A DNA stretch of 32,848 bases. It comes from a virus. The notes below the pieces were generated by a model. That model was not told the DNA's origin. It was given only the letters and a program-made list of their open reading frames with translations, and did no database searches. The DNA lies in the IMG/VR virus record IMGVR_UViG_3300022686_000019, positions 1-32,848 of that record. One strand, written 5' to 3'. Position 1 is the first letter of the stretch. Each line of letters begins with the position of its first letter. This document shows, in pieces, positions 4,914 through 27,743 of the stretch. The position numbers were made by a program, and so were the translations under genes.

Positions 4914-4951
4914 ATACTGACTTATTTTATGTAGAAATGGAGAGAATCACT

Positions 4952-6544
4952 ATGTATCTAAGACCAAGAACACCAGGTGGACTCCCACCAGGTATGCTAC
5001 CAAGATATAATCATTTGGGTGGTGTACCGTATATGCCTGGTGGGGTTGCCGCAGTGCAACAAGCTTATGCCGGTTATGGCATGAATCAACAGCAGGCAGG
5101 ATTCATGCCTAATCCCATGATGTATCAGCAGGGTGCGTTACCGGATCATCAATTTACTGTGTCGCCTCAACAGCAGGCAGCCTTACAAATGCAACAAATT
5201 CAGGCCCAACAGCAGCAAATGGGTTTGGGAGCAGTCCAACGTCATGCTGATCTATCTGTATCGGCGGCAGCCAGTCCGTTCGGCTGTTGTAATTATTTTG
5301 ATTTGTGCACGGAGGACATTTTTGCCCTCACGTTCGCAGGTCAATTAGGGTTATTGGATGCTATGGGTTTTGAACCTACAGATAATTGTTATGAATCTGT
5401 GGAATTCTTGACCTATAATCGTCCAGCGTTTGTTGATGGTAGCGCCACTGTAGGACACCTCAGCAATCCTTGTTTACCGCCAGCCGGTATTGACTATGGC
5501 CTTGGGAAAATCAGTGTTGAGGATTTTGGCCTTTATGGTCGAACGTCCAAAACCAGAAACATTCTCAAGCCAGAACGTCGTTGCCAAAGCCAGCCGTTGT
5601 ATCGTCTCAACGGCCAACGCATCATGTCGGAAAATGAATGGGACATGATTCTGACTATGGGTGTCTTGCTTGATGACATCCGCCGTGACCTGATTACTGG
5701 CGATGCCACCACACCAGGTCAATTTGATGGCCTGGAAAGGTGGGTGACTAATACATATACGGATGAGATTCTCAACAGTTTGGTGGTAGATTGGAACGGC
5801 AACGATATGAATGGGACAGGTGGTGGAGCCATTACCTGGAACGGCAACCCTATGGTAGGTAGCCCCAATTTGGTTGATTTGCTGTTGGACGCTAATACAC
5901 AAATCAACCAACGAATCTCCTGGTCACCGGCATTGCAATCGCAGAATTTGCGTTTAGGGCAGAAATTCCTTCTGATGCCTTACAATGCAATTCGTTGCCT
6001 GTTGGACTTCTACACTTGCTGGAGCGTTTGTGGATCAGGCCAAACGGTTGATAGTGTTGATTTACGCTCTTTAGAGGCCAGACAGTTTCGACAAGACCTT
6101 AACGGTGGCTTGTTTGGTTTTGGCTTCATCGAGCTGGATGGGGAGGTCATTCCCATCCTACCTTACGACTGGTCATTGATTAAAGGTCCAACGACCTTTG
6201 ACATGTATTTGATCACTGTTGGTGTTGGTGCCATGCGCTTTTGGCGTGGTCAATTTCTTAGTGCTGAAGCTGCTTTGCAACGGTATTTATCAGATGACAG
6301 TGCTGGTCTACAAGAATTCATGCCTATGGACCAGGGACGTGTGCTGGTGAAGAAAGTCACTGATGAACTATGCCGTGCTATGCACTTGTGGATGAGTTTG
6401 CGCTTGTTTTGTACTGCACCTTGGGCGCAGGTGCGAATTGCGGATGCAGTTTGTAGACGGCCACTTGGCTTCATCAGCCCTGATCCGTTGCAGACTTCGT
6501 ATTACCCGCAAAAAACCTTCAATAGTGCTACGTGCCCGGCATAA
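4952..6544 (+). CDS. Major capsid protein (HK97-type)
   Basis: 530 residues, placed directly after the protease/scaffold gene. ATG 4952 is chosen because GGAGAG lies 7-8 nt upstream; an in-frame ATG at 4937 overlaps this SD. Residues 1 to about 100 are low-complexity, rich in Pro, Gln, Met and Gly, and look like a removable N-terminal (delta-like) region. The body contains segments expected of HK97-fold coats: a helical region with NGQRIMSENEWDMILTMG, the LITGDATTPGQFDGLERW loop, and a C-terminal half ending in LGFISPDPLQT. High Cys content (for example FGCCNYFDLC) is unusual. Identification is mainly positional plus the GD...qfdGL motif. Confidence 0.8.
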   Translation: MYLRPRTPGGLPPGMLPRYNHLGGVPYMPGGVAAVQQAYAGYGMNQQQAGFMPNPMMYQQGALPDHQFTVSPQQQAALQMQQIQAQQQQMGLGAVQRHADLSVSAAASPFGCCNYFDLCTEDIFALTFAGQLGLLDAMGFEPTDNCYESVEFLTYNRPAFVDGSATVGHLSNPCLPPAGIDYGLGKISVEDFGLYGRTSKTRNILKPERRCQSQPLYRLNGQRIMSENEWDMILTMGVLLDDIRRDLITGDATTPGQFDGLERWVTNTYTDEILNSLVVDWNGNDMNGTGGGAITWNGNPMVGSPNLVDLLLDANTQINQRISWSPALQSQNLRLGQKFLLMPYNAIRCLLDFYTCWSVCGSGQTVDSVDLRSLEARQFRQDLNGGLFGFGFIELDGEVIPILPYDWSLIKGPTTFDMYLITVGVGAMRFWRGQFLSAEAALQRYLSDDSAGLQEFMPMDQGRVLVKKVTDELCRAMHLWMSLRLFCTAPWAQVRIADAVCRRPLGFISPDPLQTSYYPQKTFNSATCPA

Positions 6545-6571
6545 CACTGTAGTGCTGATATAGGAGATGTG

Positions 6572-7750
6572 ATGAATATTGCTGTGGTGGGGTTAGGTAA
6601 TTTAGGTTGGCAAGTTGCACAATTCTATGCCCAGGCATCGGTTAACTATAACGTGTATGGTTATGATGTTGACCAGGACAGGTTGGCAAGCCTCAGAGCG
6701 CAAGCAAGTCCGGTGCATATATGTGACTCACTGGAGGATTGCGTTGGCGTTTGCTCTGTTATAGTCATACTCGTTCCAGTCAAAATGTTGGGTGAGGATC
6801 AACCTGACTTGACTAAGCTGTATGCGGCAGTTGATGCTTTAGCGTTGTGCATGCCTGATGGCGCACTTGTTATCCTAGAATCCACCGTGCCCGTAGGCAC
6901 CACAGCAAATGTTCACCTAAGATTCAGAGAGTTAGGGGTTAACAAATTTAATCTGGCGTATAGCCCAGAGCGTGTTTCAGTTGATCGGGTCAAGCAGGGT
7001 ATGTTGGGGTGGCCAAAAGTCATCTCAGCAATATCCTTGCTTGGCCTAGATCGAGTAGAGCAGTTTTATACTGCATTGGGGTGTAATACACTGCGTATGA
7101 CATCTCCAGAGGCAGCCGAATTGGTGAAGATTGCTGAGGGAGTGTATAGGCAGGTGAATATAGGTATAGCATCAGAACTATCTGCGCTGGCCTATAAATT
7201 GCGCCTTAATTTTGATGAGATAAGAGCAGCGGCAAATAGTCAGCCTTATTGCAAGTTATTGACTCCAACGTTGGGTATAGATGGCTATTGCATACCGCTT
7301 TATTATAAATTCATAAATTCGCAACTAGGTTGGATGAGTCAAGAAGTAATATTGTTGAATAGGTCAGTAAGACTGTCTGACCTTTACACAGCATTGAGTG
7401 GATTTCAGGATAAGACGATTCTATTGCTGGGTATGGCTTATAGACCTAATGTGGCAGTTGTAGGTCAAAGCATAAGGGAAATTGCCGACATGTTGGCCTT
7501 GAATTGCAAGGAAATATTGGTTTGCGATCCGTTATTCTCTACGGAGGCGCGTGCTGAATTAGGCACTCCAATTAGACGTAAGGATTTACCCAAAACTGTT
7601 GATGCTATAATCATAGGTAGTTGGCACGATGTGTTCAAAGATGTCAAATTACCTGAGACACAAGCAGTATTGGACTGTCGATCAGCATTGACTGAAGACG
7701 CTAATTGGGCTAAAATCTTTGGGTCTAATGTGGTATACATACCAGCATAA
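6572..7750 (+). CDS. UDP-sugar (UDP-glucose/UDP-ManNAc type) dehydrogenase homologue
   Basis: 392 residues. The N-terminal Rossmann fold starts NIAVVGLGNLGW. Further family marks are LVILVPVKM-like strands, ILESTVPVGTT, NLAYSPERV and LLGMAYRPNVA. These enzymes oxidise the C6 hydroxyl of a nucleotide sugar to a uronate with two NAD+. Lys186 (ELVKI) and the thiohemiacetal Cys240 (GYCIP) are present. The position four after the Lys, normally Asn, is Gly190, and the position four after the Cys, normally Asp, is Tyr244. The usual GGHC is DGYC. Activity or substrate may therefore differ. AGGAG lies 5 nt before ATG 6572. A sugar dehydrogenase between capsid and connector genes is out of place and links to the glycosyltransferases that follow. 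Confidence 0.85.
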   Translation: MNIAVVGLGNLGWQVAQFYAQASVNYNVYGYDVDQDRLASLRAQASPVHICDSLEDCVGVCSVIVILVPVKMLGEDQPDLTKLYAAVDALALCMPDGALVILESTVPVGTTANVHLRFRELGVNKFNLAYSPERVSVDRVKQGMLGWPKVISAISLLGLDRVEQFYTALGCNTLRMTSPEAAELVKIAEGVYRQVNIGIASELSALAYKLRLNFDEIRAAANSQPYCKLLTPTLGIDGYCIPLYYKFINSQLGWMSQEVILLNRSVRLSDLYTALSGFQDKTILLLGMAYRPNVAVVGQSIREIADMLALNCKEILVCDPLFSTEARAELGTPIRRKDLPKTVDAIIIGSWHDVFKDVKLPETQAVLDCRSALTEDANWAKIFGSNVVYIPA

Positions 7751-7762
7751 TAGGAGTTATTT

Positions 7763-9736
7763 GTGGATTACACTGTAATTATACCATATTATAATGGTTA
7801 TGATACATTACCTAAATTAGTGGAAACATTACCAACTAATGTCCCTATTGTGGTGGTTAACGATAAGAGCGAGCAACCAGTGCCTGATAGTGTGGTTGAT
7901 GACGAACGAGTCAAGATTCTGGACATACCGGAAAAAGGATATTTCACAGGTGCGGTGAATTGGGGTATGCGCAATACCACTACTGATGTATTGATCCTTA
8001 ACCAGGATGTTTGGTTTGAATCTGATGTATGGCAAACTACGTTGGTAGAATCTCTAGCACTTGGCAGCCCTATGATTGGAGAAGGTATAATGGGCACGCA
8101 CCCAGCTTGGCCAAAAGGTTACATTCAAGGTACGTTCATGTATGTGACCCGTAAAGCCATTGAAGGTGCTGGTTATATGGATGCTGGTTTGTACCCTCTT
8201 TGGGGAAGTACATGCGATTACCAATTAAGGGTTTGCCGTAGCAGCAAGATTAGTGGACTACCTACAGTCTTGGACGTTATACCAGGTATGAAGCATAGAG
8301 ATGGTATAGGGCAACGATATGGTGATGCTATTAATAGCATATTGCGTAAAGAACCAAAACGCAGACGGGAATTCATACGCACACCACCCGAAATATCCAT
8401 AATAGTGCCTTGTCGTAATTATGGACGCTATTTATACGAGTGCCTAAATAGCATATTCGATCAAACCCTACAATCAACTGAGGTTATTGTAGTGGATGAT
8501 TATTCTGAAGATGAAACACCGCAAATTATGAATGACCAGAACTGGTCTTGGTTAGGCGTGAAGTACCATAGAACGCCTAACCAACTTGGAACGGCTGCTG
8601 CCATAAATATAGGCATTAAGGCATCGCATGGGCGCATAATCACCATTCTGTCGGCTGACGATAAGATGGAGTCAAGGCGATTGTATAGGATGTATGATGC
8701 GTTGCAAATAGCACCCCCAAAAACGTTCGTATATGATGACATCATTGTGTTTGGGTCACGAGCATTATTAGACTTTCCCAATGATCCATTATATGGTAGC
8801 GATATGCGTATTCACACTATGCGAGATTGGAGTGTGCGCGATTTTTTGTATAAGAATGGCGCACATGCTGGTATAATGTATCCTAAGCAAGCTTGGGTGG
8901 ATGCTGGTGGCTATCCTGAAGAATTTAATAATGGTCGTGAAGATTGGGCGTTCAACATAGCATTGATAAATGCAGAGTGGAGAGGATTCCACATTAATGA
9001 GCCTGGTTATATGTATAGGCGGGATGGGCAAAATAGGTCATTGTCCAATTCAACTAAAGTCACCAGGCAAGAATATTTGAGAAAATTATATAGACGGTTT
9101 CCCAATTTATATGCAATAGGAGATGTAAACATGGCTGGATGTAATGGATGCGGTGATAGTTCACCGCAATTACTTAGTAATAACAAATGGATAGGCGGCA
9201 TTAAGACTCTTGATGTGCCTGATGGTGATTGGGTGGAGTTGGAATACATCGGCCCATCTGCATTACCTCAAACCTATCAAGGTTTACGCACCTCGTATTA
9301 TTTTGGTGGTAAACGTGTATTTGGATTTGTCCAAGCAGAAGATGTCAAAGCATTATTGAGCAAACGCAGTAAAAATAATGAGTTATTATTTAGAATGCCA
9401 CAGCACCCTGGATCATCGCCAGCCGTTGAAGCTATTGACGATGAGTATGCAGACGATGCGTTGATGGATGAATTGGCTGATGATGCACTATTGGATGAAT
9501 CGGAATCTGATAGTGAGTTAGCTCCAATCATCCTAACAGATTCAGTTGATGAACCGGAAAAAGGTACACTAGGACACCAGGTGATGTTTCCTTGGGAATA
9601 TACGGTTAAGGATTTGCGTGCGGTATACCCGCAACTTACTCCTGAGCAGGCGCAAGTTATGAGGTCACGGGAAAGTGATTCCAACCCGTTTAATTCCAGA
9701 GTTACTTTATTGGATGAGTTGAACCGTATAAAATAA
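7763..9736 (+). CDS. Two-domain family 2 glycosyltransferase fused to a C-terminal virion-type domain
   Basis: 657 residues from GTG 7763 (AGGAG 6 nt upstream). Domain 1 (about 1-205) is GT-A/GT2-like: VIIPYYNGYDTL, VVVNDKSEQ and LILNQDVWF as the metal/nucleotide site. Domain 2 (about 208-450) is a second GT2: ISIIVPCRNYGRYL, VIVVDDYSEDE, LSADD, and GGYPEEF-x3-GREDWAF with the catalytic-type ED. From residue 457 the protein changes character: a CNGCG pair, then DWVELEYIGP-x-TYQGLRT-x-YYFGG, an acidic linker, and a tail. This part looks like small stand-alone virion proteins and has its own SD and ATG (9131). It would transfer sugars in the infected cell; the acceptor (capsid, tail or host glycan) is unknown. 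The stop overlaps the next start (TAATG). Confidence 0.8.
   Translation: MDYTVIIPYYNGYDTLPKLVETLPTNVPIVVVNDKSEQPVPDSVVDDERVKILDIPEKGYFTGAVNWGMRNTTTDVLILNQDVWFESDVWQTTLVESLALGSPMIGEGIMGTHPAWPKGYIQGTFMYVTRKAIEGAGYMDAGLYPLWGSTCDYQLRVCRSSKISGLPTVLDVIPGMKHRDGIGQRYGDAINSILRKEPKRRREFIRTPPEISIIVPCRNYGRYLYECLNSIFDQTLQSTEVIVVDDYSEDETPQIMNDQNWSWLGVKYHRTPNQLGTAAAINIGIKASHGRIITILSADDKMESRRLYRMYDALQIAPPKTFVYDDIIVFGSRALLDFPNDPLYGSDMRIHTMRDWSVRDFLYKNGAHAGIMYPKQAWVDAGGYPEEFNNGREDWAFNIALINAEWRGFHINEPGYMYRRDGQNRSLSNSTKVTRQEYLRKLYRRFPNLYAIGDVNMAGCNGCGDSSPQLLSNNKWIGGIKTLDVPDGDWVELEYIGPSALPQTYQGLRTSYYFGGKRVFGFVQAEDVKALLSKRSKNNELLFRMPQHPGSSPAVEAIDDEYADDALMDELADDALLDESESDSELAPIILTDSVDEPEKGTLGHQVMFPWEYTVKDLRAVYPQLTPEQAQVMRSRESDSNPFNSRVTLLDELNRIK
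9118..9122 (+). promoter_or_regulatory. Internal ribosome binding site inside the glycosyltransferase gene
   Basis: AGGAG lies 8 nt before ATG 9131, which is in frame (codon 457) and falls precisely at the boundary between the second GT2 domain and the CNGCG domain. Confidence 0.6.
9131..9736 (+). CDS. Nested small protein (CNGCG / YIGP domain) from internal start
   Basis: The predicted 201-residue product starts MAGCNGCGDSSPQLL. It has a CxxC pair at its N-terminus, a compact beta-rich segment (DWVELEYIGPSALP, TYQGLRTSYYFGG, FGFVQAEDVKALL), an acidic low-complexity linker with a 9-residue repeat, and a C-terminal helix-rich tail. Small proteins with the Y-x-G-P...G...Y-x-F-G pattern occur as independent genes in phage head regions as far as I recall; the function is unknown to me. 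It could be made both as a fusion with the transferase and alone. That dual expression is inferred from the SD. Confidence 0.5.
   Translation: MAGCNGCGDSSPQLLSNNKWIGGIKTLDVPDGDWVELEYIGPSALPQTYQGLRTSYYFGGKRVFGFVQAEDVKALLSKRSKNNELLFRMPQHPGSSPAVEAIDDEYADDALMDELADDALLDESESDSELAPIILTDSVDEPEKGTLGHQVMFPWEYTVKDLRAVYPQLTPEQAQVMRSRESDSNPFNSRVTLLDELNRIK
9452..9505 (+). repeat. 27-bp imperfect tandem repeat in acidic linker
   Basis: Two 27-nt units (from 9452 and 9479) encode DDALMDELA and DDALLDESE. They lie in the acidic linker of the nested protein and suggest recent slippage or duplication. Confidence 0.55.
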
Positions 9737-10476
9737 TGGAACTTGATGTGACTGTTGTAATTCCCTGCTATAACTATGGACGCTATGTTGCTGATGCTGT
9801 TGCTAGTGTCTTACATCAGCCGGATGTGCCCAAGAGTGTTGTCATTGTTAATGATGGTTCAACTGATGATAATACTTGGAAGGTTTTGATTGACATAGCA
9901 AACACAATGAATCGAGTCACGGTCATTAGCTATCTCAACAGCAAAGGTACGGCATCAGCATTAAATTTGGGGATTGATTATGCTAAGACTGAGTACATAG
10001 CCATACTATCTGCTGATGACATGTTTGCGGATAGTAGGCTAACTACATTGCTGAGTTTCATGTCCACATTGTACCCTAAGCACTTTGTGTATGACGATCT
10101 CTGGATATTTGGTGGAGCAGCCGATACATACAAACTGGCTAGAATGGAACGCGATGGTGATGAGGACAAATTAGTGGCTAGATTACCTGTTTGGGATAGA
10201 TTATTGGTGATAGAAAAGCAATGCATACATGCAGGCTTGGTATACCCTAAGCAAGCTTGGACAGATGTTGGTGGTTATCCTGAAGAATTTGGAGATGGAC
10301 GTGAAGATTGGGCTTATGCGGTGGCATTGGGGGAAGCTGGCTGGATAGGTAGGAAATATCCAAGAGCGTTGTATAAATACCGTAGGCACGGTGCGAATAG
10401 GTCAGCATCCAATGTTGATCCACAATCAAAATTGAAATTCAGATTGAAAATAGCTAAGAGGTTTTCAAATGTATAA
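9736..10476 (+). CDS. Family 2 glycosyltransferase (paralogue of the preceding domain 2)
   Basis: 246 residues forming a single GT2 domain: VTVVIPCYNYGRYV, VIVNDGSTDDN, a DxD-type LSADD, and YPKQAW-x2-VGGYPEEF-x-DGREDWAYA. The C-terminus ends ALYKYRRHGANRSASN. The GGYPEEF/GREDWA block and its surrounding DNA closely match the second domain of the preceding protein (around 8878-8960 versus 10242-10320), so the two arose by tandem duplication. The start overlaps the previous stop by one base and has no separate SD, implying translational coupling. It presumably adds a further sugar to the same acceptor. Confidence 0.85.
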   Translation: MELDVTVVIPCYNYGRYVADAVASVLHQPDVPKSVVIVNDGSTDDNTWKVLIDIANTMNRVTVISYLNSKGTASALNLGIDYAKTEYIAILSADDMFADSRLTTLLSFMSTLYPKHFVYDDLWIFGGAADTYKLARMERDGDEDKLVARLPVWDRLLVIEKQCIHAGLVYPKQAWTDVGGYPEEFGDGREDWAYAVALGEAGWIGRKYPRALYKYRRHGANRSASNVDPQSKLKFRLKIAKRFSNV

Positions 10477-10786
10477 TAGCGATTTGGCTGAATTCATTAT
10501 GGTACTTCTAATTGTGTACCGTGTGACACGTTTCATTGTTGTGGATAATGGTCCATTTGATGTGTTCTTGCATATACGTTTATTTATGGGTGTATACGAC
10601 CATGATGAAAACGGTAAACGCCCTATGTTGGGTATATTGTTCGGATGTGGTTATTGCATGAGCACTTGGATTAGCGCATTTATGGCTGTACTTTTGGTAT
10701 TACTGCACAATGAATCTTTATTGATGATGATACCTGTTTGGTTGACGTTGTCGGGTGCTGTTACGTTATTATGGAGTGATGACTGA
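10469..10786 (+). CDS. Small membrane protein, DUF1360-like
   Basis: 105 residues. A hydrophobic N-terminal segment contains LIVYRVTRFIVVDNGPFD, followed by an FGCGYCMSTWISA motif and two C-terminal hydrophobic stretches (about 62-80 and 82-100). The YR-x-TR-x(2-4)-D ... C-x-YC-x-S-W pattern is that of the DUF1360 family of phage and bacterial membrane proteins, whose function is unknown. GAGG lies 7 nt before ATG 10469, and the gene overlaps the glycosyltransferase by 8 nt. Its place at the end of the sugar block could mean that it anchors those enzymes at the membrane, but that is only an inference. Confidence 0.65.
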   Translation: MYNSDLAEFIMVLLIVYRVTRFIVVDNGPFDVFLHIRLFMGVYDHDENGKRPMLGILFGCGYCMSTWISAFMAVLLVLLHNESLLMMIPVWLTLSGAVTLLWSDD

Positions 10787-11880
10787 TGGCAATAATACCA
10801 GTGCAGACTACGCTGAAAGAAGAATATAATAATTTGGCCGTACCATTACCTACTTATGCTGGTATAGTCCAAATATCCGAGTGCATGATTTGGGGCGTCA
10901 ACAATACCACTGATCCTGATCCAGGTTGCCGGCAACCGTGGTCTAAAATTAGTGTGGATTGGATGCAACGTTATTTAGGTGAGGCGCAACTTGAGATTGA
11001 AGATGTTATTGAGTTTCCATTAGTCGAGCGTTATTTTGATAATGAACAATACGTCATAGACCCAGACAAACCCAACAATAGAGTTATAGGCAATAGAGGG
11101 AAGATTCTACAAGTTGGTGTATTATCGACATCTGACGTGGCCATAAATTCAGCAGTTAACCATGCCAGCGATCCGGCAGTTATTGGTCCAGTAGCCACTA
11201 CTGTAACCGATATAAATGAGATTAGAGTGTATCATCCAGGCACTAATGTGGAAATTATACCATCAGAAGTGTCGATTGTTGGAGGCGCGGTCACTATATA
11301 CGTGCCTAGATGCCGTATGGTGACGGCAGCTGCGTATGCTACACAGCCCAAGGCTGGTATAGTATATGCTGCTATTTCTAATTTTGAATCTCAGGTTGAT
11401 ATCAAACGTGTGTATCACGATAATTCTACGAACGCCACACTGGTTTGGAGGCACCCTTGTAATACTTCGTGCTTAGCTAATGGGTGTAAGGAGTATACAC
11501 AATCAGCGTGCCTATACGTTCGTGACAATGAAAGTGGGACATTTGAGTGGGAACCCGCAACATACGTTGATGGTAATTGGGTGGGTGCTAATTATAAGTA
11601 TGATGATACACCTCAGTGGGTGCGCATAAACTACAGTGCAGGATTGGCAATGGCAAATTTCCAAGTTCAAGAGACAATAATCAGATTGGCTCACTCCAAG
11701 ATACCTGACGAATTTTGCTCTGCTTGCAGCACATGGGCCAACTACCACAAGCGTGATAATTTTAGGCCCAAGGTGATGACGCGTGAACGTTATAATTGCC
11801 CATTTGGGATGGTAGATGGTGCTTGGACTGCATGGATGTTTGCTCAGCGTATTAAGCAAGTAAGAGGTTATTCGTGGTAA
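10786..11880 (+). CDS. Putative head-tail connector (adaptor) protein
   Basis: 364 residues with an ATG overlapping the preceding stop (TGATG) and GGAG 9 nt upstream. Position suggests an adaptor that docks on the portal: it follows the capsid and sugar block and precedes a gp10-like protein. The N-terminal 75 residues are helix-prone, the middle is beta-rich, and a cluster of cysteines (CNTSCLANGCKEYTQSAC, about 226-243) and the ending ERYNCPFGMVDGAWTAWMFAQ are distinctive. I do not recognise a named family, so the role is inferred from gene order. Confidence 0.5.
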   Translation: MAIIPVQTTLKEEYNNLAVPLPTYAGIVQISECMIWGVNNTTDPDPGCRQPWSKISVDWMQRYLGEAQLEIEDVIEFPLVERYFDNEQYVIDPDKPNNRVIGNRGKILQVGVLSTSDVAINSAVNHASDPAVIGPVATTVTDINEIRVYHPGTNVEIIPSEVSIVGGAVTIYVPRCRMVTAAAYATQPKAGIVYAAISNFESQVDIKRVYHDNSTNATLVWRHPCNTSCLANGCKEYTQSACLYVRDNESGTFEWEPATYVDGNWVGANYKYDDTPQWVRINYSAGLAMANFQVQETIIRLAHSKIPDEFCSACSTWANYHKRDNFRPKVMTRERYNCPFGMVDGAWTAWMFAQRIKQVRGYSW

Positions 11881-12526: not shown

Positions 12527-12810
12527 AACTTAAGGTGCTACTTGAGCAAGGTCACACTAAGCTGGTCAAAGCCGGTAAGCGATTCTATTGGTTGCCTTTA
12601 TGGTCAGATGATATATCCAAGGGTGTGCCGTATAGTTTGCCTTGGAGTGATATAGTGCCGCAAAGTCTGGCTGACATCTTAATGAAGCGTGAGATATACA
12701 CTCTTGACGACCTTATTAGTCAACCAAAATTGGCCAACGTGACTATGAGTCAAGGGGTGGATTATTTTGGCCTTATATTAACAATCAAGGAGAGATACAA
12801 TGGCGAATGA
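12523..12810 (+). CDS. Hypothetical protein upstream of the tail-tube gene
   Basis: 95 residues starting MKLKVLLEQGHTKLVK, with its ATG overlapping the preceding stop (ATGA), so probably translationally coupled. It has a basic N-terminus, Trp-rich middle (FYWLPLWSDD) and helical C-terminus. Its position is that of a tail terminator, but it is shorter than usual for that role and no motif supports it. The end overlaps the tail-tube start by 11 nt. Confidence 0.6.
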   Translation: MKLKVLLEQGHTKLVKAGKRFYWLPLWSDDISKGVPYSLPWSDIVPQSLADILMKREIYTLDDLISQPKLANVTMSQGVDYFGLILTIKERYNGE

Positions 12811-14308
12811 AGAACTTATTACGCTGGACTCTGATGATTGGGTTGCGTTTGCCCAACCTGGCGGTCCAAACACTGCTGTGACTTACCTACGTTGCCATGA
12901 TGTGGGCGATATTAGCGAAACTTTGGGTGAGTTGAAGCTCAAGTTCAGGCCTGATCCCAATACACCAAAGCGTTACTTGAAAACAGGTATTGTGCGTGGT
13001 GAGCCTGGACTTGCTGAGGTAGAAATTACGGCATCAGTACGCAAAACTCGTGATATTCTTGAAGAGTATCTTAAGTGTGGTGGCCCACTATACTTCCACG
13101 ATGTGTGCGGAAAAAAGCAAATATTTGAAGAGTGGGATAGCCAAGCCATAATTTTGGATTATGCCATCCCCACAGAGCAAACAGCATCAAATATTGCCAA
13201 GAAAGTGCCCGGTGATAACGATGAATCTATGAACGCCTATTCGTTCGGGTCGCCAAACAAGTATTGGCCCTATAAACCCAAGGCAAGTAGGCTGACGGGT
13301 ATCACTGAAACGGCTGCTTTGAATGGTATTGACAATTGTAGCACGCAACGTTGCGCTGGTTATTGTGGCGGTGGTATTGACTTGGGTCAAGATTTGGTGG
13401 TTGCGGGTGATGCGGATGCGGCCAGCCCTGCTGATGTGGCTATTCCTTGGGACACTGCAGACGCAGGAGTCACATTCACGGAAGAATCCACCGCCCCATT
13501 TGGTGCTGGGGAGGATATTGCTGCCATTATCTGCTTAGATTTAGGTGGAGGTACTAAACGGCGCATTGCATTCAATGGTACATCTCAAGTTGGAGTGCCC
13601 GCCGAATCTGCGTATTCAGACGATGGTGGTGTGACCTGGACATCCGTTTCAATTGGGTCAACTAGTGCGCAATATGTGCTATCTGGTAAAGCTGTGACCT
13701 ACTTGGATGATGGTTCGGTCATTTGGGTTGTGACTACTGGTGGGTATGTTTATAAATCCACCAATAAGGGTGTATCCTACACCACGTTACATGCAGGCAC
13801 TTTGACTACTCAGAATCTATTCTCTATTAGTCGATACGGTCAAAATTTGCTCGTGGCCAGCGGTGCTGCTGATGCCTCTATTAAATCAACCGATGGGGGT
13901 AGATCGTGGAGTGCTATGTCTGCCACGGGTGGCGGTGGTACTCTCAACAGGATGTATGCTGTCACCAAGTTGCGTTACTTTGTGGGTGATAGTGCTGGCA
14001 ACCTGTATTTCACAGAAGATGGTGGCACTACGTGGTCCCTACGGCAAGCCTATGGTGGGTCCATTGCTGACGTAGTATTCACTACAGAATTGTTTGGCAT
14101 TATGTTACACAATAGTGCTGATCCTATTGGCACTGTGTACTATACTCGTAATGGTGGCTATTCTTGGTTAGGTCTAAATACTGACCCAAACGAAGGGTTG
14201 AACATGATTCTTATGCTCAGCCCAGATGAGGCTGTGGTAGTCGGTGAACCTATTACGGGTGGGTATGCTGTAATTTTGTTGGTTGCCCCTGATCCGTCTA
14301 TTGGGTAA
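12800..14308 (+). CDS. Major tail (tube) protein with C-terminal Asp-box beta-propeller
   Basis: 502 residues; AAGGAG lies 7 nt before ATG 12800. Residues 1 to about 190 are proposed as the tube domain: just upstream of chaperone and tape measure genes, with beta-rich sequence such as AEVEITASVRKTRDILEEYL. From about 200 onward the protein is a repeat domain with five Asp-box motifs (S/T-x-D/N-x-G-x-S/T-W/Y) at residues 273-280, 320-327, 363-370, 405-412 and 449-456. The spacing of 42-47 residues is that of sialidase/sortilin-type propeller blades. Such domains bind ligands or serve as structural scaffolds. In a tail-tube subunit the propellers would decorate the tail surface in many copies. 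Asp-box reading is strong; the tube assignment is from position. Confidence 0.7.
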   Translation: MANEELITLDSDDWVAFAQPGGPNTAVTYLRCHDVGDISETLGELKLKFRPDPNTPKRYLKTGIVRGEPGLAEVEITASVRKTRDILEEYLKCGGPLYFHDVCGKKQIFEEWDSQAIILDYAIPTEQTASNIAKKVPGDNDESMNAYSFGSPNKYWPYKPKASRLTGITETAALNGIDNCSTQRCAGYCGGGIDLGQDLVVAGDADAASPADVAIPWDTADAGVTFTEESTAPFGAGEDIAAIICLDLGGGTKRRIAFNGTSQVGVPAESAYSDDGGVTWTSVSIGSTSAQYVLSGKAVTYLDDGSVIWVVTTGGYVYKSTNKGVSYTTLHAGTLTTQNLFSISRYGQNLLVASGAADASIKSTDGGRSWSAMSATGGGGTLNRMYAVTKLRYFVGDSAGNLYFTEDGGTTWSLRQAYGGSIADVVFTTELFGIMLHNSADPIGTVYYTRNGGYSWLGLNTDPNEGLNMILMLSPDEAVVVGEPITGGYAVILLVAPDPSIG

Positions 14309-26229: not shown

Positions 26230-26379
26230 TTATGCGAAATAAAAATTGCAACCTATGGCGTGACAAATCAAACCACCATAAATTATAGCAACTATGATCA
26301 ATGCTACCAACAACAGGATACAAGATATGATGTCCTCCATAGTTATGCCCGCTATAATGCGCTTAAATAGTCCCTTCAT
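26230..26379 (-). CDS. 49-aa single-pass membrane protein
   Basis: The short ORF starts at ATG 26379, overlapping the methyltransferase stop (TAATG), with AGGA 7 nt upstream. It opens MKGLFKRIIAGITMED and has a strong hydrophobic helix at about 17-39 (IISCILLLVALIIVAIIYGG). The basic N-terminus suggests an N-in, C-out topology. Tight coupling and the SD support it. Its function is unknown. Confidence 0.6.
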   Translation of the reverse strand: MKGLFKRIIAGITMEDIISCILLLVALIIVAIIYGGLICHAIGCNFYFA

Positions 26380-27029
26380 TATATTTTCCTAAAGTGCATC
26401 ATGTGTTGGCCGTGAGGGTGTCCAAACTCACCTATATAGGTGATATTAAATTGGGGTAACACCAAATTACACGTTTGGATTAACATCTCAGGAGGATAGT
26501 GGACAGAATAATCGTATGCAAATTGGGTGGTGACTATAGGAACTTGCATACTGGACAAACCACCCATATGAATTACAGCTTGGAAATATTCAACTGCGGC
26601 GCATGGGAAGAAAGTGGCGCAAAGTAAGGCACCAGAATTCAGCACCTTGACCGCATTGTTCAAGCATAGCAATATGTCAACTATGTCTATATGCGTAAAT
26701 ACAGACTGGGCCAGTGCGAAGTCAAACTTTGCGCTGAATCTATCGAATTGGAACACATCGTTGACCATTATGTTGACACGCTTCTCAGCCAATCCATTTT
26801 GCCTCACTGCTTGCAATCCTTGGGTAATGTACTGTTCATTCTTGTCTATGCCGTAATAATTGCCCCGGTTAAGATAGCCAATAAACCGTATACCCCCACG
26901 CAACCAGCCACAACCTATATCTAGCATCTTGTGGCTAGAGTCCAAGCCTTGGCCAATCATGTACTCGAATTGCAATTTGCCTATTATCTCAGACATTTGA
27001 ATGTTCATTTCTTTGGTTACTTTTGTCAT
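26379..27029 (-). CDS. Class I SAM-dependent methyltransferase
   Basis: 216 residues. SAM-binding motif I is MLDIGCGWLRGG (35-46); the acidic end of the second strand is YYGID (58-62); motif IV-like sequence is FDFALAQSVFTHI. The C-terminal third has aromatic/His-rich sequence (YDYSVHYPPEM; GHPHGQHMMHF), not typical of DNA methyltransferases; there is no NPPY/DPPY. A small-molecule, sugar or lipid acceptor is more likely. It lies next to the sulfotransferase-like gene, which also points to glycan or metabolite modification. AAGGA lies 10 nt upstream of ATG 27029. Acceptor unknown. Confidence 0.8.
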   Translation of the reverse strand: MTKVTKEMNIQMSEIIGKLQFEYMIGQGLDSSHKMLDIGCGWLRGGIRFIGYLNRGNYYGIDKNEQYITQGLQAVRQNGLAEKRVNIMVNDVFQFDRFSAKFDFALAQSVFTHIDIVDILLCLNNAVKVLNSGALLCATFFPCAAVEYFQAVIHMGGLSSMQVPIVTTQFAYDYSVHYPPEMLIQTCNLVLPQFNITYIGEFGHPHGQHMMHFRKI

Positions 27030-27032
27030 AGC

Positions 27033-27743
27033 TTATACATCCTTCTGCCAGGGCAATACCATACTATTTACAGTATCTTCAATTGGAGTATATACCCCCA
27101 GAAAATTCTGCAACATTTTGAATTCAGTAATTGCAGTTGCTTCTGAGTATTGTATCATATCAAAATCCACTTTATGCACCTTATCACTCTCGGTGAACAT
27201 TGCTATTTCATGCATGTAATCGTGATAGGCCAAAACGCAATCGTATAACTCGGCCCAACCAGTCTTAACGTCATCTGGTATCCTGTGCGTCACCCTATCA
27301 CCCCTACGCCATAAGGAATCTGTATTATTAGCCGCATTACGCCAAACCATAACGATTTTATAATTATCACCCAATAACCGTCGCCACACACTCCAGATTA
27401 AGCATGTTCGTGGGTCTTTGAATCCCCATATGTCATTTTGATATTCACGTTGCTTGATTAACTGGGTCATGTCGTCAAGCCAACGTTCGGCATATTTTTC
27501 AACCCATTTCAATCCGAACGATGCAGGCATTTTGGGGTGTAACCAATCTGAAACAGCTTCGTTCAATATGGCTTTGTTGTAGTCTTTGAACGCCCTATCT
27601 TCCCATTGGCCTTGTGGGTGATACGGTTGCTTCTGCTGTAATACCGCAAGATCAGTGCCCATAGGAATATCCCACCAATGTAATGCTTTGGCTATAACAG
27701 AAGTACCACCAGCATGCATACCTAATACTGCTATACAAGTCAT
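27033..27743 (-). CDS. Sulfotransferase-like protein
   Basis: 236 residues. The P-loop-like 5'-phosphosulfate binding loop is LGMHAGGTSVIAKAL (residues 7-21), close to the G-M-H-R-S-G-T-S form of the sulfotransferase family 3 group, with Ala in place of the usual Arg. GFKDPRT (107-113) and VWRNAANNTDSLWRR (133-147, the 3'-phosphate loop with the Ser) complete the family signature. It would move sulfate from PAPS to a hydroxyl or amine acceptor in the host cytoplasm. AGGAG lies upstream of ATG 27743, overlapping the previous gene's end by 4 nt. Acceptor unknown; glycans made by the plus-strand sugar genes are one possibility. Confidence 0.8.
   Translation of the reverse strand: MTCIAVLGMHAGGTSVIAKALHWWDIPMGTDLAVLQQKQPYHPQGQWEDRAFKDYNKAILNEAVSDWLHPKMPASFGLKWVEKYAERWLDDMTQLIKQREYQNDIWGFKDPRTCLIWSVWRRLLGDNYKIVMVWRNAANNTDSLWRRGDRVTHRIPDDVKTGWAELYDCVLAYHDYMHEIAMFTESDKVHKVDFDMIQYSEATAITEFKMLQNFLGVYTPIEDTVNSMVLPWQKDV

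Follow-up and report, generated by a model that had tools for sequence, protein, structure and literature searches.

Only a handful of systems are known in which phage virions are glycosylated, and to our knowledge there is no explanation of how the enzymes recognise their target. The structural operon of the mycobacteriophage Corndog (cluster O) includes, between portal and protease, glycosyltransferase (GT) and methyltransferase genes that were proposed to modify the capsid (PMC4351075). For Che8 (cluster F1) and Rita, glycans on the major capsid proteins are reported (PMC11256854, citing Freeman et al. 2023). Apart from glycosylation, a single ORF can encode a full-length protein together with a C-terminal product that is translated from a start of its own inside the frame, as in Rpn long/short and Cas10d/Cas11d (PMC10327210). 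Here we describe a viral locus in which a GT gene beside the capsid gene carries a conserved internal start signal.

Organization of the cassette and its relatives

The window, i.e. the whole stretch of DNA analysed, is a 32.8 kb virus record (32,848 nt, IMGVR_UViG_3300022686_000019). A sequence-only reading had placed a glycosylation module of four ORFs between the major capsid protein (MCP) gene and a head-tail connector gene. All four are present and agree with that description: the dehydrogenase homologue comes first, then the two-domain GT2, the third GT2 and a small membrane protein of DUF1360. Neighbouring genes overlap or stand at most 24 nt apart. Residues 457–657 of the long GT, missed in that reading, are a separate non-GT domain with its own start (CTD). 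The features are as follows.

4937..6544, plus strand: MCP, HK97 fold, Cys-rich (GCCxxFDxC motif); AlphaFold model with Foldseek matches to phage capsids and encapsulins, family alignment
6572..7750, plus strand: nucleotide-sugar dehydrogenase homologue, nearest UDP-ManNAc dehydrogenase (WecC-like), window-specific; Pfam, PDB 4r16 (E 8.3e-32), NCBIfam TIGR03026 just under cutoff
7763..9736, plus strand: long product GT2 + GT2 + CTD, 657 aa; Pfam, alignments with invariant GT motifs
7763..8362, plus strand: first GT2 domain, about residues 1–200, LNQD and PLWGxTxxxQ motifs; invariant alignment columns
8387..9112, plus strand: second GT2 domain, about residues 209–450, VDDxS, SADD and GREDW motifs; PF00535 at 212–318, alignment
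9118..9122, plus strand: internal Shine-Dalgarno (SD) sequence AGGAG, 8 nt before the internal ATG; sequence, SD kept in 32/32 distinct fusions
9131..9736, plus strand: short nested product of 201 aa, the CTD (MAGCNGCG...), with predicted separate translation from ATG 9131; internal-start analysis, stand-alone homologues in two relatives (L041, L062)
9221..9400, plus strand: small beta domain of the CTD, residues 31–90 of the short product; AlphaFold, block pLDDT 93–97
9736..10476, plus strand: third GT2, 38% identical to the second GT2 domain and its paralogue, ending where a CTD would begin, window-specific; Pfam, comparison with relatives
10469..10786, plus strand: small membrane protein of DUF1360 / phrog_781, 105 aa; Pfam, PHROG
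10786..11880, plus strand: conserved virion-operon protein, putative connector; position only

The long GT and third GT2 genes meet in a TAATG overlap at 9736, and the DUF1360 and downstream genes in a TGATG overlap at 10786; for the dehydrogenase homologue a GTG lies at 6569, and the ATG at 6572 is better spaced. The capsid call for 4937..6544 is backed by an AlphaFold model (pLDDT 69, pTM 0.68) with 141 PDB matches at E<=1e-3; the matches listed are HK97-fold phage capsids and encapsulins. The name "head-tail connector" for the product of 10786..11880 is a positional label and the assignment putative; Pfam, PHROG and PDB, the profile search included, gave no significant match to it. Elsewhere in the window, a tail-region protein (12800–14308) has BNR/YCF48-like repeats in its C-terminal half and is conserved in relatives. 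Away from the virion operon, at 27033–27743 and 26379–27029 on the minus strand, a sulfotransferase-like protein stands beside a methyltransferase; the former is 28% to the gene of relative L003 and has no Pfam match of its own.

The dehydrogenase homologue carries the three-domain NDP-sugar dehydrogenase fold with its NAD motif, since PF03721 (E 1.5e-16), PF00984 (E 3.8e-12) and PF03720 (E 2.6e-8) all score above cutoffs, and to this extent the earlier assignment to UDP-sugar dehydrogenases stands. The catalytic set of the family, Lys, Asn, Cys and Asp of the central domain, is incomplete. By comparison with 4r16, the Lys and Cys are retained, but Gly replaces the Asn of the MEN/AEN motif and no counterpart is seen for the Asp that follows CxP; the score on TIGR03026 is 173.9 against a cutoff of 189.8. 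With changed active-site residues and a sub-cutoff score, a role in sugar supply is not to be assumed, and the protein may be inactive or altered. As a query by itself it found no relatives in viral contigs.

The three GT2 domains of the cassette are borne out by Pfam, where Glycos_transf_2 (PF00535) matches two stretches of the long GT (E 4.1e-36) and one of the third GT2 (E 5.3e-24). VDDxS, SADD and GREDW are invariant or near-invariant in 17 aligned relatives, as expected of GT2 members. The profile of the long GT also aligns with the chondroitin synthase K4CP (PDB 2z86) across the domain junction (E 1.7e-34), and this two-domain layout makes a short polymer a possible, unproven, product.

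Relatives were found by scans with the MCP and with alignments of long GTs and of MCPs, which together recovered about 35 distinct viral contigs. A scan of bacterial genomes added two contigs, both from Chloroflexota MAGs. Some 30 uncultured relatives keep the long GT, or at least the CTD, beside the MCP gene. In the complete relatives examined the GT-CTD fusion lies between the MCP gene and the conserved downstream gene, its start usually within 100 nt of the MCP stop, and the two-domain GT adjoins the MCP gene down to about 40% MCP identity. Across the family, then, GT genes lie within or next to virion genes. Most relatives have a DUF1360-like gene, with CPxCxGxW, 3′ of the CTD, and methyltransferases are nearby in two (L005, L016). 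Sulfotransferase-like genes, often in tandem with GT2, were observed in or near the virion operon of L003, L006, L011, L014 and L015. A recognisable CTD was not seen in four of the most divergent MCP contigs (L063, L065, L068 and L069, the last a fragment).

The proposed link of the module to virion production is supported in that GT2-GT2-CTD stands beside the MCP gene in relatives, with methyltransferase or sulfotransferase-like genes in the same operons; the conserved core differs from the cassette first described. What keeps its position is the GT2-GT2-CTD fusion with its internal start, followed by DUF1360, whereas the dehydrogenase and the separate third GT2 are absent from every other family locus examined.

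Searches by tblastn of 50,697 phage records gave no relative of the MCP families, no match to a stand-alone CTD and only generic GT2 matches to the long GT, and no isolate of the family was found there. One relative, the 101.6 kb contig C7 of an Anaerolineae MAG (G001; locus L072), is a virus genome, with the capsid genes towards one end and the terminase and portal genes at the other. As this larger of the two MAG contigs is a whole virus contig, the link to Chloroflexota, the suggested host, has binning as its basis.

The GTs might instead act late on the host surface or a wall polymer, to mask receptors or for superinfection exclusion, their place in the late operon being incidental. Such a role is compatible with the top PHROG match of the GT2 domains, the GtrB-like O-antigen conversion family phrog_841 (E 1.9e-14), with the neighbouring membrane protein DUF1360, and with a two-domain arrangement like that of polymer synthases. 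The GT part of the long protein, however, has no TM helix, C-terminal ones of the GtrB type included, and its neighbour is DUF1360 and not a GtrA-type flippase, which makes host conversion of the O-antigen type less favoured. Moreover, the GTs are fused in frame to a capsid-adjacent protein across the family, and host-modifying phage genes are typically early or lysogenic. We therefore regard late modification of the host surface as unlikely, though by no means far-fetched.

A conserved internal start signal within the GT gene

An in-frame internal ATG opens the CTD in all 32 distinct GT-CTD fusions, at 9131 with MAGCNGCG in the window and with MxCCG elsewhere. Before it lies an SD sequence, AGGAG, GGAGG, GGGG or similar, at a spacing of 6–13 nt, mostly 8. 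The conserved start codon with ribosome binding site that is expected of a gene within a gene is accordingly found in every fusion. The SD energy of the internal ATG has a median of -8.45 kcal/mol versus a mean of -2.5 among 294 further in-frame ATGs (P 1e-19 by Mann-Whitney, an indicative value as the loci are related), and anti-SD pairing energies of -6 kcal/mol or lower occur in 32/32 internal starts versus 10% of these others. The MCP start, at -9.5, is close to this median, and the best upstream GT start is weaker, at -6.2. In every fusion GT and CTD are joined in one frame, with neither a stop nor a frameshift between them.

If the CTD were just the C-terminal domain of the GT in an ordinary fusion, the internal ATG and SD would be a by-product of the conserved peptide G-E-R-P-M-x-C-C-G. 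GERP-like peptides do occur in about one third of the loci, with codons tending to GGAGAG. A recoding control was therefore used, in which seven upstream codons were swapped for synonymous ones at the codon usage of the locus itself. Synonymous recoding seldom yields an equally strong SD (combined P ~6e-10, an indicative value, as combination overstates independence among related loci). Individual P values reach up to 0.65, and in some loci the SD signal is due in part to conserved Gly-Glu-Arg-Pro-like residues at the junction. The SD nevertheless sits on 28 different five-residue contexts (GERP, DRRNE, AGGCT, SGRFP, DGGDS and others) and is also retained on the differing peptide EGRTE, indicating that the motif is more than a conserved peptide. 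Two natural stand-alone CTD genes carry their own starts as well. An ordinary fusion hence appears very improbable. The GERP peptide was likewise considered as a sufficient cause of the SD and rejected by the recoding control.

The conserved internal ATG and SD, the recoding control and the stand-alone CTDs together argue for a gene within a gene, and the CTD is very probably also translated alone. With less confidence, the strength of the internal site suggests that free CTD would be made in excess of the long form.

The CTD and a possible role at the capsid

Across relatives the CTD comprises the C-terminal 90–225 residues of the long GT protein. An alignment of 34 members has a CC or CxxC pair directly after the Met, the beta domain, a low-complexity linker and a variable C-terminal end, which is E3-binding in 4 members and helix-hairpin-helix in 6. 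These last 40–60 residues were observed to swap among an E3-binding domain, a helix-hairpin-helix and an unnamed helical end (L003, L005, L006; L039, L051, L052). The CTD core has no PHROG or Pfam match, matches to E3_binding or helix-hairpin-helix being confined to the variable ends, and its model found no significant match by Foldseek in PDB or viral models. With a beta domain that has no fold, PHROG or Pfam match, a head role of the CTD is argued from its position and its stand-alone forms.

Near-invariant cysteines are also numerous in the MCP (4937–6544) and downstream (10786–11880) families, as in GCCxxFDxC, TCWSVC and ECxFxG. Together with the CC/CxxC start of the CTD and the CPxCxGxW of DUF1360, they suggest metal binding or disulfides in the virion.

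In L041 a stand-alone CTD gene immediately follows the MCP gene, and in L062 two such genes stand in tandem beside it, in both cases without a fused GT and with no GT homologue detected nearby; seven other relatives have only one GT2 domain fused to the CTD. L041 and L062 sit in different parts of the MCP tree, and this scatter points to probable repeated loss or gain of the GT part, with the CTD staying in place. A domain that persists without GTs, adjoins the capsid gene and is expected at a high level is most simply capsid-associated.

These observations lead to the explanation we favor, in which the CTD is a capsid-associated protein and the nested gene tethers the GTs to the assembling head for virion glycosylation; we give it about an even chance, the virion role being inferred. 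Translation from 7763 would yield a soluble enzyme with two GT2 domains and the CTD, and translation from ATG 9131 the CTD alone. The CTD, which stays with the capsid gene, is probably a decorating or minor protein of the head. Owing to the strong internal ribosome site, free CTD would be the major product and the long form a minor one that carries the GTs. The GTs would be brought to the assembling capsid via the common CTD and there assemble a glycan on virion proteins, the capsid or others. Tailoring of the sugar would fall to variable neighbors, such as methyltransferase and sulfotransferase-like genes or, here, the dehydrogenase homologue and third GT2. Alternatively, a host polymer may be the acceptor.

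A nested gene may also serve another end, with the short CTD regulating the GT or assembling with it instead of serving as a virion protein, in the manner of Rpn long/short and Cas10d/Cas11d. There are precedents for intragenic C-terminal products that bind the full-length protein or block it (PMC10327210), and the CTD has no known structural homologue. A regulator is, however, hard to reconcile with L041 and L062, where the CTD lies beside the capsid gene in a locus with neither a fused GT nor a detected GT homologue, and with an internal start as strong as capsid-level starts. We consider a regulatory CTD rather unlikely.

Tethering of the GTs to the head can be carried further. The head may build its own glycan coat through a minority head protein bearing an N-terminal two-domain GT, the coat being anionic, possibly polymeric, and tailored by sulfotransferase-like, methyltransferase or uronate-forming neighbors. 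This extension is speculative and has perhaps one chance in a handful.

Comparison with known systems

Phage glycosylation modules and genes within genes are each known; their combination, in which the enzyme is fused to a capsid-adjacent protein and the gene has a conserved start inside it, is new as far as could be found. The sequence proposes a rule of targeting, in which the enzyme and a capsid-adjacent protein have a domain in common and a conserved internal start would set their ratio. Being hidden inside an annotated "glycosyltransferase", the CTD family would be missed by ordinary gene callers. Our study uncovers a small virion-operon gene family in a viral lineage for which the 50,697 phage records held no isolate.

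The family resembles the mycobacteriophage modules of Corndog and Che8 in having glycosyltransferase and methyltransferase genes. In those phages the GTs are described as separate genes, and neither fusion to a capsid-adjacent protein nor an internal start is described in PMC4351075 or PMC11256854. In the present family the GT adjoins the MCP gene, no relationship appears by MCP search, and two GT2 domains share one chain. Among in-frame internal-start pairs, to which C/Nu3 of phage lambda also belongs, Rpn, Cas10d/Cas11d and C/Nu3 concern defence, CRISPR or protease and scaffold, and none couples a GT to a capsid-adjacent protein. Two GT2 domains per chain are found in K4CP (PDB 2z86) and heparosan synthase as well, yet the phage protein carries the CTD, and the likeness is at superfamily level. 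With GtrB (phrog_841) the match is again that of the GT2 superfamily, and the phage GT differs from it in its lack of a TM helix, in a cassette free of a GtrA partner, and in its position within the virion operon.
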